A program made the position numbers and the translations under genes. From Candidatus Hikarchaeia archaeon HikBin5 (lineage in GTDB: Archaea > Halobacteriota > Halobacteria > Halobacteriales > Hikarchaeaceae), in contig WTZU01000001.1 in NCBI GenBank assembly GCA_009889625.1, positions 78,574 to 142,573 of the forward strand: a stretch of DNA of 64,000 bases. Direction: 5' to 3'. Shown here in pieces: positions 2,569-46,899 of the stretch; positions within the stretch are counted from its first letter, which is position 1, and each line of letters starts with the position of its first letter. Below the pieces are notes generated by a model that saw only the letters and a program-made list of their open reading frames with translations, was not told where the DNA came from and made no database searches.

Positions 2569-4344
2569 ATGGCCCCTTCGGTCTCTGTGAGTGCAATCCT
2601 CCCTGCATACAATGAAGCTTCTACAATAGCTTCCGCAGTCGAAGATACTTTAGCACATCTTAAAAATTTCTTACCGGATGGTTCATACGAATTAATCATA
2701 GCTGAGGATGGATGTACTGACGAAACACCAAAAATAGCATCATATCTCGCCAATAAATACGACGAAGTGATACATTATCATAGCCCTCATAGACTAGGTA
2801 GAGGGGAGGCATTAAATAGGGCATTTGAAATTTCAAAAGGTGAAACTTTGCTTTATCTCGACACCGATCTAGCCACTGACAATTCACATCTTGAAACACT
2901 CATAAATTCAATTCAATCTGGGTCTGCAGACATCGCAACAGGGTCGAGATGGTTCCCTGGAATAAAAACAAAACGACCCTTCCATAGATCTATCTTGAGC
3001 AAAGGATTTAATTCCTTAGTTAGATCTCTATTTAGATCCAAATTATATGACCACCAATGTGGATTTAAAGCTTTCAACCGTGAGGTCTATTTTCAACTTT
3101 CACCTTCTCTAAAAGATAATCATTGGTTTTGGGACACCGAAATCCTAGTCAGGGCCCAAAAATTAAATTTGAATATATTAGAAATCCCCGTTTCTTGGAC
3201 TCCTCAAGAAGATACTAAAGTCGACATCTTTCGTGATGTCTTTGCTATGGGATTGAATATCCTTCGACTATGGATTGAATTGTATGTCTACCCACACGCA
3301 ACCCCCTTAAATTCATCATTATTTGGATTTTTTATATCCTTTTTAGCTTTATTTTTGATGGGGTCTTATCTAGATTTAGATTTTAATTTCTTTTATACTT
3401 TCATATCCAATCCAATTTATCTATTATTGTGCATTCTAATTTATTTGTTATCTTGGCCCATTCGGGGAGTTCGATACCAAAAAATACTATCTCAATTGGG
3501 TTTCAATGAACCTCTTTTATTCCTAACTGAAACTATATTTATAAGTCAAACTTGCAATTTAATCATTCCAGCAAGAGCTGGAGATGCAGCTAGGGCTTAC
3601 ATCTTAAAATCAAAGAAACAAATTCCCTATGTATCTGGATTCGCTTCATTATTCTTCGAAAGACTATTCGATCTTCTAACTATCACCACACTGGCTGGAT
3701 TGGTATTCCTACTCACTTTCTTTTTAGAAAATAAATACCCATTTTCATTCTCAATGGGGAATGGTACTATAACTACAAGCGGAGAAATAGCAATTAAACT
3801 AGCATTCTTCGTCGCAGTGGCTGTCATTTTGGCCCTAATTCTTATACTTCTAAGTTATAAAGTTAGGGGCAATCTCATATCTAGATCCTTTCAATTTTTC
3901 AGCAACGATGTGTACATACAACGTTTCTCATCTTCTATACAAACTTTCATAGAAAATATCCAAAAGCTTACTATAAACCCTGCAATTTTTTTCCGCGTTG
4001 GTTTGCTCAGTATCTTAATTTGGTCGTTGGACGTATCTGTAGCAATTATAATATTGCACTCTTTCACTCCTTCTTTACCCTTGCTCACTCTAATTTTCAC
4101 TTGTTTTTTTGCTGTTAGCATTGGAAACCTAGCGAAAGTACTCCCTCTATCTCCTGGCGGGATTGGACTTTATGAAGGTGCATTTACTCTCTTAATTGTA
4201 GGTTTGCTAGGTATTTCCCCAACCCTTGCATTAGGCGTGGCCATTCTTGATCACGCTATCAAAAATATTCTCACAATTGTAGGGGGATTCATTTCTTCCT
4301 TGGATTTGAATCTATCTATAAAAAATACTTTACAAAACAAATAG
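2569..4344 (+). CDS. Glycosyltransferase family 2 fused to lysylphosphatidylglycerol synthase/flippase-like TM domain (AglD-like)
   Basis: GT2 'ILPAYNEASTIASAV...AEDGCTDET...DTDLATD'; C-terminal multi-TM domain with 'ARAGDAARAYIL' and 'LPLSPGGIGLYEGAF'. Confidence 0.88.
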   Translation: MAPSVSVSAILPAYNEASTIASAVEDTLAHLKNFLPDGSYELIIAEDGCTDETPKIASYLANKYDEVIHYHSPHRLGRGEALNRAFEISKGETLLYLDTDLATDNSHLETLINSIQSGSADIATGSRWFPGIKTKRPFHRSILSKGFNSLVRSLFRSKLYDHQCGFKAFNREVYFQLSPSLKDNHWFWDTEILVRAQKLNLNILEIPVSWTPQEDTKVDIFRDVFAMGLNILRLWIELYVYPHATPLNSSLFGFFISFLALFLMGSYLDLDFNFFYTFISNPIYLLLCILIYLLSWPIRGVRYQKILSQLGFNEPLLFLTETIFISQTCNLIIPARAGDAARAYILKSKKQIPYVSGFASLFFERLFDLLTITTLAGLVFLLTFFLENKYPFSFSMGNGTITTSGEIAIKLAFFVAVAVILALILILLSYKVRGNLISRSFQFFSNDVYIQRFSSSIQTFIENIQKLTINPAIFFRVGLLSILIWSLDVSVAIIILHSFTPSLPLLTLIFTCFFAVSIGNLAKVLPLSPGGIGLYEGAFTLLIVGLLGISPTLALGVAILDHAIKNILTIVGGFISSLDLNLSIKNTLQNK

Positions 4345-39985: not shown

Positions 39986-40972
39986 CTACATATACCCTAG
40001 ATCTCTAAGACGTTCCATAATCCCTTCTTTATCTTGGGCCCTCCCTTGTCTCTCTGAGGTTTCTTCTAGATTTTGTAACCATGCCGGTTTATTTTCAGAT
40101 TTCATAGATCCCTTTTTTGTACCTAATGATCTAAACCCTTCAAAATATTTTGGCCCAACTGGTATATCTTCAGATAAAATCCCTTTTGGCAGATCATCAT
40201 AATCAGATGGAACATGGCCTATTGGATATCCCTCAACTGAATCTGGAATAACAAATTTCCACATGGCATCCCATAAACTTCTCTCATCAAATTGCAAGAT
40301 TGGATGAATTCTATCATGAGGTGGGTATTTCTTATGGTCATGGCGAGGGCTAAAAAAGGTCTCATTTGATCTAGCCTCTTGTTCATCCCACCTGACACCA
40401 GAAAATATTCCATCAAATCCCCTTGTTATGATCGTATCATTGAGAACTGCAGTCTTTAACAAATGATTACCTACAAATGAATCTGGATCTATGACTATCC
40501 TTTCTTCTTTATAGTCTAATTTTTGCAATTCCTTCTTATTCGACTCATTGAGGTATTTTACTTCTATGCTTTGGCCACTTCTCTCTATGAGATTACCAAT
40601 ATCTTCATTCCTCGCTTTAATTAAATTTAGTTCCCATTTATCTGCCCATCTATCTACAAATTCAGTCACCTCTGGAAAATGTGCAAAGTGATCTAAAAAT
40701 ATCGCAGGAGGGATCTCTTCTCCCCTCTCCTGAGCCACTTCTCGTATCACATAAAGTAATAGTGTGGAATCTTTCCCCCCTGTCCACATAATGGCTGGAG
40801 ATTTATACTGTTCTAAACCCTCATTGACAACTTCGATTGCCTTTTCTAGTTTTTCTTCAAGACTATGATATTCTTTTGCTGAATGGCCTCTACCATCCTG
40901 ATAATCGACCTCAATATAATCTGGAAATTCAACAACCATTCTTCTCATACCTCTTTGCTGTATCGTGGGCAA
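39986..40972 (-). CDS. PP-loop protein of the CysD/PAPS-reductase family (probably not a classical CysH)
   Basis: PP-loop 'WTGGKDSTLLLYVI'; 'GFDGIFSGVRWDEQEARSNE' resembles CysD 'GGARRDEEKSRAKE'; no Cys residue in the ORF. Confidence 0.78.
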   Translation of the reverse strand: MPTIQQRGMRRMVVEFPDYIEVDYQDGRGHSAKEYHSLEEKLEKAIEVVNEGLEQYKSPAIMWTGGKDSTLLLYVIREVAQERGEEIPPAIFLDHFAHFPEVTEFVDRWADKWELNLIKARNEDIGNLIERSGQSIEVKYLNESNKKELQKLDYKEERIVIDPDSFVGNHLLKTAVLNDTIITRGFDGIFSGVRWDEQEARSNETFFSPRHDHKKYPPHDRIHPILQFDERSLWDAMWKFVIPDSVEGYPIGHVPSDYDDLPKGILSEDIPVGPKYFEGFRSLGTKKGSMKSENKPAWLQNLEETSERQGRAQDKEGIMERLRDLGYM

Positions 40973-43397: not shown

Positions 43398-43503
43398 TGT
43401 GCCTATCTTATTTTGGCATTCATAACATCTCCGGAAGCCTAAAGTTTGGGTCCCTCTATCCTATTCCACATGAACATGCAATCCGCTCATTGTGAGGTAG
43501 ATT

Positions 43504-44190
43504 ATGAGCATTAAATCTGAACAGATAGAGATTTCCTCATCTGATTTTGGAAAAATGAAAGATTACGTCTATGAGCAACTCGTCGCTAGCACTGTAGGTG
43601 ATGTTGGTGGAAATAGAATGAGGTGGTACCCTTGGCATTCTGCAGAATACCGTTTTACTCACATTCTCAATGTGATTTCTCTATCTACAAAAATAGCACA
43701 AAATGAAGGGGCAAATATAGATCAGGTCCGTGTATCTGCACTCTTTCATGATATTGCAAAATTTTCTTCCACACAAAAAGACCACGCAAAAGATGGCGCC
43801 GATCTAACCTCTGCATATTTACGTGAAAATTTTAATTTCCCCGATTCTTTCCTTGAAAATATTCATAAAATAATCTCCAATCACGTTCATGATGGATCAA
43901 TTTCCCATTTATCACTTGAGGAAAGATGCTTAATTGAAGCAGACATGATCGATAAAATTGGTGCCAATGGATCTACACTTTTACTCCTAAGAATGGGTTA
44001 TGATTCTCATCCTCCTGCCCACATCATGGAAACATTGCAGAAAGTTATCAAACGCGGAAAAGAAACTCTCCCTTATATAAGTACAGATACTGGATACTCT
44101 CTCGCATATCAGAGAATCCAACGTGCAACGTGGTTAAAGGAATGGGTGGAAGATGAAACTCCTGGAGTGTCCGAACTACCCCGTAATTAA
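43504..44190 (+). CDS. HD-domain phosphohydrolase
   Basis: 'YRFTHILNVISL..KIAQNEGANIDQVRVSALFHDIAKF', 'IISNHVHDG', 'EADMIDKIGA'. Confidence 0.85.
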   Translation: MSIKSEQIEISSSDFGKMKDYVYEQLVASTVGDVGGNRMRWYPWHSAEYRFTHILNVISLSTKIAQNEGANIDQVRVSALFHDIAKFSSTQKDHAKDGADLTSAYLRENFNFPDSFLENIHKIISNHVHDGSISHLSLEERCLIEADMIDKIGANGSTLLLLRMGYDSHPPAHIMETLQKVIKRGKETLPYISTDTGYSLAYQRIQRATWLKEWVEDETPGVSELPRN

Positions 44191-44838
44191 AATTGAAATT
44201 GATTTTAACAAAAATATACTACCAAATATAGCTAGTATTGCTGAATTCACCAAAGCAACCACTCTGAAAAACCGTTCATATTTCTTTCCAGCTACTATCA
44301 ACATTGTTGGAAATATTAAAATCCATATTAAAATTCCTCCAAATATCCCTGTGATTACTTCTATAGTTTGCAATTGAATTTCCCACCCTGTGATTTTGGC
44401 TACATTATCTGTAACTATCCCTAACCCTTCATTCTGAAATAATGCTGCAGACAGACCTGCCCAAAAAGCCATTTGCCATGGGTTTACCACCCCCACACCC
44501 AAAGCTTTGAAAAACCCACCTTTATTATTCTTTTTAACTTCCCACTTGACTATTTTCCTCCCTTCTCTGAATGACTTATGTGCAAAAACTAACATTACAG
44601 TCCCGCCCAACCCTATTAACAATCCCTGTAACCATGCTCTAGAAATAACAATAGCTACCATACCCATGTATGCCATTGACAATAAGACTAGATCTGACAC
44701 CATCGCTCCAAAACCAGTTTGTACTCCTGCACCCCATCCCTTATTTATACTCTCGTCTGCAATTATGGCATTCATTGGCCCTAGTGGTGCAGCTAATATC
44801 AATCCGAATAATATTCCTACTATTATTCCTCCTATCAT
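44176..44838 (-). CDS. LysE/RhtB-superfamily exporter
   Basis: 'LGPMNAIIADESINKGWGAGVQTGFGAMVSDLVLLSMAY', multiple TM helices, 'NPWQMAFW'. Confidence 0.82.
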   Translation of the reverse strand: MIGGIIVGILFGLILAAPLGPMNAIIADESINKGWGAGVQTGFGAMVSDLVLLSMAYMGMVAIVISRAWLQGLLIGLGGTVMLVFAHKSFREGRKIVKWEVKKNNKGGFFKALGVGVVNPWQMAFWAGLSAALFQNEGLGIVTDNVAKITGWEIQLQTIEVITGIFGGILIWILIFPTMLIVAGKKYERFFRVVALVNSAILAIFGSIFLLKSISILITG

Positions 44839-44856
44839 TCTATCTTTTCTCTTAAC

Positions 44857-45558
44857 TCATATCTCTCTCACGTGTATGGACATCGACACCTCTTTTGGTA
44901 AGCTATGTTCTCCTTTCTCATTGCTCACTTTAATCATCCCAAATGGGGCCACCGATTCAATTTTCACTTGTTTTCCTGGTATTATTCCTATCTCTGCCAA
45001 ATATTGCAATTCCTCACTATCTCTAGTGCGTGGGGCATTCTCGGAGCCGATGTAATTTTCTTTCACTCTCTCTATCACTACTATTTCTCCAGCACTATGT
45101 TCTCCTAATTTTGTAGTCTCATCTTTGGCAATTGATGTCAGATCTTCACTTGGTATTGGTGCACCATAAAGTCCATATTTTGGATTCCCAAGCGCATTCG
45201 CAATTCTGCGCTCTAATTCTTCTGAAATATGATGTTCCAATACATCTGCCTCTTCGTGAACTTCTGACCAATCATAACCCAAAAACTCCACGAGATATCT
45301 CTCTATTAATCTATGATGACGTAGTATTTCCAGTGCGATAGCTTCCCCTTCAGTATTGAGCTTGGCACCTTTGTATTTTTCATATGTTATGAATCCTTTA
45401 TCTCCTAGCTTGACTAGCATACTCGTCACAGTCGGCGCGCTCACTCCCATCTTCATAGCGAGATCTGAAGTTGATACTTGCCCTTCATTCTCTCGATTAA
45501 TTAAATAAATATTTTTTAAATAATCTTGCATCACATCGCTAGCATGTTCTCGCATCAC
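44857..45558 (-). CDS. DtxR/MntR-family metal-dependent transcriptional regulator with FeoA-like C-terminus
   Basis: 'VSTSDLAMKMGVSAPTVTSMLVKLGDKGFITYEKYKGAKLNTEGEAIALEILRHHRLIERYLVEFLGYDWSEVHEEADVLEHHIS'. Confidence 0.93.
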   Translation of the reverse strand: MMREHASDVMQDYLKNIYLINRENEGQVSTSDLAMKMGVSAPTVTSMLVKLGDKGFITYEKYKGAKLNTEGEAIALEILRHHRLIERYLVEFLGYDWSEVHEEADVLEHHISEELERRIANALGNPKYGLYGAPIPSEDLTSIAKDETTKLGEHSAGEIVVIERVKENYIGSENAPRTRDSEELQYLAEIGIIPGKQVKIESVAPFGMIKVSNEKGEHSLPKEVSMSIHVREI

Positions 45559-45567
45559 TTGATCTTA

Positions 45568-45583
45568 TTTAGACCTATCTAAA
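45568..45583. promoter_or_regulatory. Candidate operator: inverted repeat TTTAGA-CCTA-TCTAAA upstream of the DtxR gene
   Basis: Perfect 6+6 inverted repeat 10 nt upstream of the DtxR start, between the start and a minus-strand TATA-like stretch (AAAATATATG). Confidence 0.6.
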
Positions 45584-45663
45584 CATATATTTTTGGGTAT
45601 TTTTCTATGCCCCCTTCTAACAATCTCTTTTGGCTCTTGCCAAAAAATTTATTCTCTCTTAAT

Positions 45664-46899
45664 CTATATTAAAGGAGTTGGCTCTTGATCTCCTTCATAT
45701 GGTTCTTCTGTATGGTACTCTAGCCAAGCATCACCATTAAGGAAGTTCTCTGGAATGTCTTCTTCCAATGAACCTGCATTTATTTTAACCCAACCTTCGC
45801 CCTCTTTTGACCTCCAGGAATATGCTGCCTTTCCAAGAGCTATGTACACTTCACTTTTCTCTGGTTTAGACTCTCTAAGTTGGAAGATCGCTGAGGATAG
45901 TGTAGTTTCATCGTTATAGTCATTTTCTTGATATCTACAAATTGAGTTCAAACCTGGCCCATTTGTATGGTCTATCGATAAATCTCTCATTGTTTCCACC
46001 GTGACATTTCCTTCATTTTCTTCTAGTACTTCCATGACTCTTTCATACCTACAATAGCTCGAAGGTATCTCCGATCTAGGCCGCGCCAAATGACTTAAAA
46101 TCTCAAATTTATTCCCCCGACCAGTTACTCCATTCTCAATCCATCTGGCCGCAAGATGAGTAAATTCTCCTTCAATTATGATGGCTCTTTTGGCATCTGC
46201 AATAGGAATACTGCCTGGGGATGACATGGGATCTGAAAATAACAACGGCGTAATGACTTGGGCCGCTTCTACTGCGGTATCTCCATGGATCAACCCTTGT
46301 CGCATAAACTCTCCCCTAGATGCAGCTGCCCATTCTTTCGCACTTTTTCCTTCTTCGTCAAATGTGATCGTTCGTGATATATTCGATCCTATTGCAACAC
46401 CTTTGTCATTTATGCCCATCTTTACGGCAGTAGACCCTGCAGCAGCGACCATCACTACATTATTCCCCTCTTCGTGCTCTTCGACTCTAATCACATTTAC
46501 CTGCTGATTCTCATAACAATTCTCGCCAGTGAATTCGCTAGAACCTTTTTTATCCGATTGTTTAAAGAAAATAGTTTCTCCCGTTGCAGCAGCATTCCCC
46601 GCTGCAATAGCAACTGTACAACCATCTGGGGTAATGTTCTCTTCGAACAAATTAAACGCCAATAGGTCTGCATAAGGTACGGAAGCTGATTTGGCCATAC
46701 TTTTAATTTCCACTTTGGTTAATTCTGGCAATCGATAGGAATTTTCTTTCGTAGCTGCGTGTACCTCCTTCTTTTGGATTCCTCTACCATTTGCAGCAGT
46801 CCAAAAATTCTTTAGATTTTGCTCAATGGCCCATTTAAGCATCTCTCCTCTCTTTTCACCTCTCTTTACAGCCCTCCTCTGATTCGTACAATCTGACAT
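45664..46899 (-). CDS. C45 peptidase / acyl-CoA:6-aminopenicillanate acyltransferase-like Ntn hydrolase
   Basis: 'DGCTVAIAAGNAAATGETIFFKQSDKKG', 'GINDKGVAIGSNIS', 'DHTNGPGLNSICRY'. Confidence 0.78.
   Translation of the reverse strand: MSDCTNQRRAVKRGEKRGEMLKWAIEQNLKNFWTAANGRGIQKKEVHAATKENSYRLPELTKVEIKSMAKSASVPYADLLAFNLFEENITPDGCTVAIAAGNAAATGETIFFKQSDKKGSSEFTGENCYENQQVNVIRVEEHEEGNNVVMVAAAGSTAVKMGINDKGVAIGSNISRTITFDEEGKSAKEWAAASRGEFMRQGLIHGDTAVEAAQVITPLLFSDPMSSPGSIPIADAKRAIIIEGEFTHLAARWIENGVTGRGNKFEILSHLARPRSEIPSSYCRYERVMEVLEENEGNVTVETMRDLSIDHTNGPGLNSICRYQENDYNDETTLSSAIFQLRESKPEKSEVYIALGKAAYSWRSKEGEGWVKINAGSLEEDIPENFLNGDAWLEYHTEEPYEGDQEPTPLI

Follow-up and report, generated by a model that had tools for sequence, protein, structure and literature searches.

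The window, that is, the whole 64,000-nt stretch of DNA analysed here (GC content ~40%), carries a DtxR-family metalloregulator gene followed on the same strand by a gene for a LysE-type translocator. The locus comprises the following features:

45594-45584, minus strand: TATA box AAAAATATATG (from the sequence; A/T block conserved in aligned orthologous promoters)
45568-45583, no strand assigned: operator, perfect inverted repeat TTTAGA-N4-TCTAAA (from the sequence and orthologue conservation)
45562-45564, minus strand: predicted transcription start at ~45563, assuming a distance of ~26 nt from the TATA centre
44857-45555, minus strand: dtxR, three-domain metalloregulator with an ATG start (Pfam PF01325, PF02742 and PF04023; metal ligands)
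44839-44856, minus strand: dtxR-lysE intergenic stretch of 18 nt, the place occupied by gdt1 in many haloarchaea
44176-44838, minus strand: lysE, LysE-type translocator (PF01810, E=7e-11; haloarchaeal orthologues)
43504-44190, plus strand: HD-domain phosphohydrolase gene (PF01966), convergent with lysE and overlapping it by 15 nt

A previous sequence-only reading had described a perfect inverted repeat ten nt from the DtxR start, a TATA-like element beside it about 30 nt from the start codon, and 18 bp between dtxR and the LysE gene. The repeat (TTTAGATAGGTCTAAA, minus strand 45583-45568) and the 18-nt gap are present as described. The repeat lies just upstream of dtxR, at a distance of 12 nt from the ATG, or 9 nt from an alternative in-frame GTG at 45558. 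AAAAATATATG directly abuts the operator, with its centre ~33 nt upstream of the ATG; from this position, and with the usual archaeal spacing between TATA box and start site, transcription is predicted to begin near 45563, so that the leader would be just a few nucleotides long. lysE is probably co-transcribed with dtxR, and the HD-domain gene, a neighbour that many haloarchaea share, is a syntenic marker rather than a component of the switch. Upstream of dtxR and on the same strand (45664-46899, minus) lies a C45-type autoproteolytic acyltransferase gene. An Rfam search of 43400-46400 returned no match.

The regulator exceeded the cut-off for all three of its Pfam models (PF01325, PF02742 and PF04023), which correspond to a helix-turn-helix, a metal/dimerisation and a FeoA domain, respectively. 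By these domains as well as by its conserved metal ligands it belongs to the DtxR/MntR family, as had been proposed: D11, H81, E85, H100, E107 and H108 were invariant in 30 orthologues, and D104 was found in 29. Compared to the DtxR reference, the protein carries Asp at the Met10 and Cys102 positions, while His100 corresponds to DtxR His98; compared to MntR, Lys14 occupies the Glu11 position. It is thus no Mn-selective MntR of the Bacillus type, a two-domain protein with Asp8 and Glu11 as ligands: the protein keeps the Asp but has Lys14 instead of Glu11, and it possesses a FeoA domain. Its best curated family match, a Thermococcus-type Mn regulator, fell below the cut-off. The same combination of Lys at the MntR Glu11 position with His98 occurs in DR2539 of Deinococcus radiodurans, a Mn/Fe-dependent repressor of mntH that binds an inverted repeat in the promoter (PMC3327659). 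DR2539 differs in being bacterial and in its reported target, which is mntH and not a lysE operon of its own. This match in ligands makes metal-dependent autorepression by the window regulator a well-supported prediction.

Perfect inverted repeats are common in this DNA. The window holds 29 of the 6-N4-6 form, and 199 with spacers of 0-10 nt, so that the repeat by itself is weak evidence. The exact operator sequence occurred once in the 1.07 Mb of the own genome, and matches with one mismatch were not enriched there (10 vs. 16 for the reversed control pattern); the motif scan suggested previously hence gave no regulon signal within this genome. One near match, at 40802-40817, was considered as a further site and dropped, as it falls within a predicted gene. 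What lends the repeat its significance is conservation at orthologous dtxR loci, and not its perfection alone. Among 80 dtxR loci found in public genomes with a DtxR alignment (nearly all of them haloarchaeal, and related by descent, so that they do not amount to 80 independent events), 47 matched the operator in at least 10 of 12 letters just ahead of dtxR, compared to a mean of 0.12 and a maximum of 1 in dinucleotide shuffles. Common as perfect repeats with 6-bp arms are in the window, a functionless chance repeat is therefore highly improbable: across many haloarchaeal genera the arms are conserved in letters and position, and the spacer is variable. The palindrome upstream of dtxR is very probably a real switch.

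The comparison drew on three relatives from the window's own genus (~1 Mb) and on haloarchaeal-type genomes from its order; the window itself may stem from Hikarchaeia/Marine Group IV. Two of the genus relatives retain versions of the operator with 10 of 12 letters, and the dtxR locus of Halobacterium salinarum has all 12. In aligned operators, variation falls on the four spacer bases and on the outermost base of the arms, which are otherwise nearly invariant. In aligned promoters, positions -10 to -3 relative to the operator form an A/T-rich, TATA-like block, with the TATA box at the same distance, which supports the earlier proposal of a near-leaderless promoter with the operator inside the core promoter. 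As in SirR/MntR operons, the shared operator thus sits between TATA box and dtxR start. The core TTAGA-N4-TCTAA occurred 132 times in 94 genomes of the haloarchaeal type, vs. 49 times for a control pattern; among the 75 core-motif sites listed, 24 preceded a dtxR match by no more than 70 nt. The remaining 33 of the 80 dtxR loci, the Halorubrum group among them, lacked an operator at 10 of 12 letters. In that group, the dtxR-lysE linkage persists without it.

Operators in haloarchaea also precede genes for GDT1, a ZnuA-type ABC importer, ArsP_2 and a ZIP-like permease. The gene after an operator-bearing dtxR (n = 47) encoded GDT1 in 24 cases, a ZIP-like protein in ten, LysE in four and ZnuA in three, with six unassigned. 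Characterised members of the GDT1/UPF0016 family transport Mn. Several haloarchaeal loci read dtxR-gdt1-lysE with an HD-domain gene convergent on lysE, which is the arrangement of the window plus gdt1; dtxR-gdt1-lysE was probably the ancestral order. Neither GDT1 nor ZnuA was found in the four genomes of the genus, each 58-78% complete. In three genomes (L205-L207: G016, G056 and G049), GDT1-LysE pairs unlinked from dtxR had an operator of 10 of 12 letters upstream, preceded by a TATA-like block in the two sequences inspected; such pairs resemble operons that have lost a leading dtxR. Where LysE genes had neither dtxR nor GDT1 as a neighbour, no operator lay within 1.5 kb.

Further sites were observed elsewhere. 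In three genomes of the genus (L119, L120 and L121; G000:C22, G001:C41 and G003:C34), the start of the ArsP_2 gene is preceded at exactly 39 nt by TTTAGAnnnnTAAAAT, with varying spacer. With 9 of 12 operator letters matched, ArsP_2 is tentatively a second target of the regulator in this genus. At L065 (G041:C5), an operator is flanked by a ferritin-like gene on one side and a divergent gene for a metal-binding solute protein on the other, and may therefore serve both. Locus L104 (G072) has one operator before dtxR (3180-3195) and another directly before the znuA-type importer operon that follows (3994-4009). No convincing operator was found upstream of the Nramp genes in G001 and G002.

We consider it quite probable that the locus is a reduced form of an archaeal autoregulated operon of the SirR/MntR type, in which metal-loaded DtxR represses dtxR-lysE and gdt1 has been lost. 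DtxR loaded with Mn(II), possibly Fe(II), would bind TTTAGA-N4-TCTAAA between TATA box and transcription start and block assembly of the transcription complex, so that dtxR, and lysE as part of the same transcript, would be silent under sufficient metal and expressed under scarcity. The lineage of the window would have lost gdt1 from dtxR-gdt1-lysE, with lysE left as the sole transporter under the switch. Conservation of operator and TATA position, together with the metal-transporter genes that share the operator, agrees with the autoregulated metal homeostasis that the sequence-only reading had put forward. Against a reduced operon of this kind, a repressed GDT1 or LysE makes poor sense as a detoxifying exporter, 33 of 80 loci have no site at 10 of 12 letters, and one-mismatch sites are not enriched in the own genome.

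The inverse logic, with the bound regulator activating uptake and repressing efflux, was also considered, because certain ZnuA operators looked as though they preceded the TATA box. It was dropped: ZnuA in L104, the locus where the operator position was resolved, has the order TATA-operator-start, like dtxR, and deletion of Halobacterium sirR was reported to raise the mRNAs of the importer genes zurM, zurA and ycdH in the presence of Mn (PMC1779511). The autorepression of dtxR-lysE predicted under sufficient metal fits these SirR data.

LysE itself may carry a metal, an amino acid or a metal-related ligand. Its match to PF01810 (42.3 bits vs. a cut-off of 25.6) places it in LysE/RhtB, a family best known for amino-acid export. 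All 26 homologues scanned matched plain PF01810, and none of them matched the metal-transporting families MntP, CadD or GDT1 at E up to 1. An AlphaFold model of the protein had a pLDDT of 81, and its best Foldseek match in the PDB, at E=0.086, was uninformative. The haloarchaeal partner of lysE in the operon, GDT1/UPF0016, belongs to the LysE superfamily (PMC7380456), although the window LysE is no GDT1; the same review regards the transport directions of GDT1 as speculative.

That LysE exports a metal had been proposed from the sequence, and a stronger version would make it a Mn exporter and the operon a metal-detoxification unit. We regard the latter as unlikely, even though the company LysE keeps speaks for it: in many haloarchaea LysE adjoins GDT1 or follows one gene later, the pair retains the operator where it is unlinked from dtxR, metal transporters often occupy the position following dtxR, and the haloarchaeal GDT1 proteins at these loci keep the EFGDKT motif. 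The proposal has to contend with the confinement of the 26 homologues to PF01810, with the missing operator at LysE genes that have no dtxR or GDT1 neighbour, and with Halobacterium, where the sirR transcript correlates with those of zurA, zurM and ycdH, all of them importer genes (PMC1779511). It also conflicts with the promoter: with the operator placed between TATA box and start, transcription should be shut down at high metal, whereas a detoxifying LysE would need to be induced under that condition. Metal export is thus only suggested, being favoured by the linkage to GDT1 and opposed by the repressor position, and the locus presents a checkable contradiction, with supposed exporters under a promoter expected to be off at high metal.

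Alternatively, LysE could export an amino acid or a related compound and merely hitch-hike in the operon, the switch serving dtxR and, in relatives, gdt1. This is a serious possibility to which we give somewhat less than even chances. It accords with the plain PF01810 assignment and with the many genomes in which LysE is unlinked and operator-free, but is opposed by the dtxR-lysE linkage, kept in the genus despite the absence of gdt1, and by the conservation of GDT1-LysE pairs in different settings. A bolder and rather doubtful idea is that the PF01810 LysE proteins of this clade could be metal transporters acting with GDT1 or in its place, with a repressor-type promoter driving their expression when metal is scarce. 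If true, this would extend an amino-acid export family to metals and call the assumed direction of transport into question.

Archaeal DtxR-family regulons with palindromic operators were reportedly described by Leyn and Rodionov in 2015, in FetR, MntR and ZntR groups with metal transporters. Haloarchaeal SirR/MntR regulons are already described, and the window operon is of that known kind. The GDT1 review cites Leyn and Rodionov on the metal control of four UPF0016 genes from halobacteria (PMC7380456), and these four cases appear to have been predicted already. SirR of H. salinarum, an autorepressor that is reported to control Mn uptake in a Mn-dependent manner (PMC3600143), resembles the window regulator in belonging to the DtxR family and in its link to metal transport. 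The best-matching H. salinarum locus, in which a TATA box precedes all 12 operator letters and dtxR is near-leaderless, is likely the published sirR gene; there dtxR adjoins gdt1, with no lysE found beside it, whereas the window has lysE without gdt1. For the reduced dtxR-lysE form and the operator-bearing GDT1-LysE pairing, we found no description in the accessible literature. The locus contributes a well-defined archaeal operator at a fixed place in the promoter, which haloarchaea share with a low-GC relative of ~1 Mb, and an uncharacterised LysE-family gene tied to manganese-type control through its GDT1 partner.
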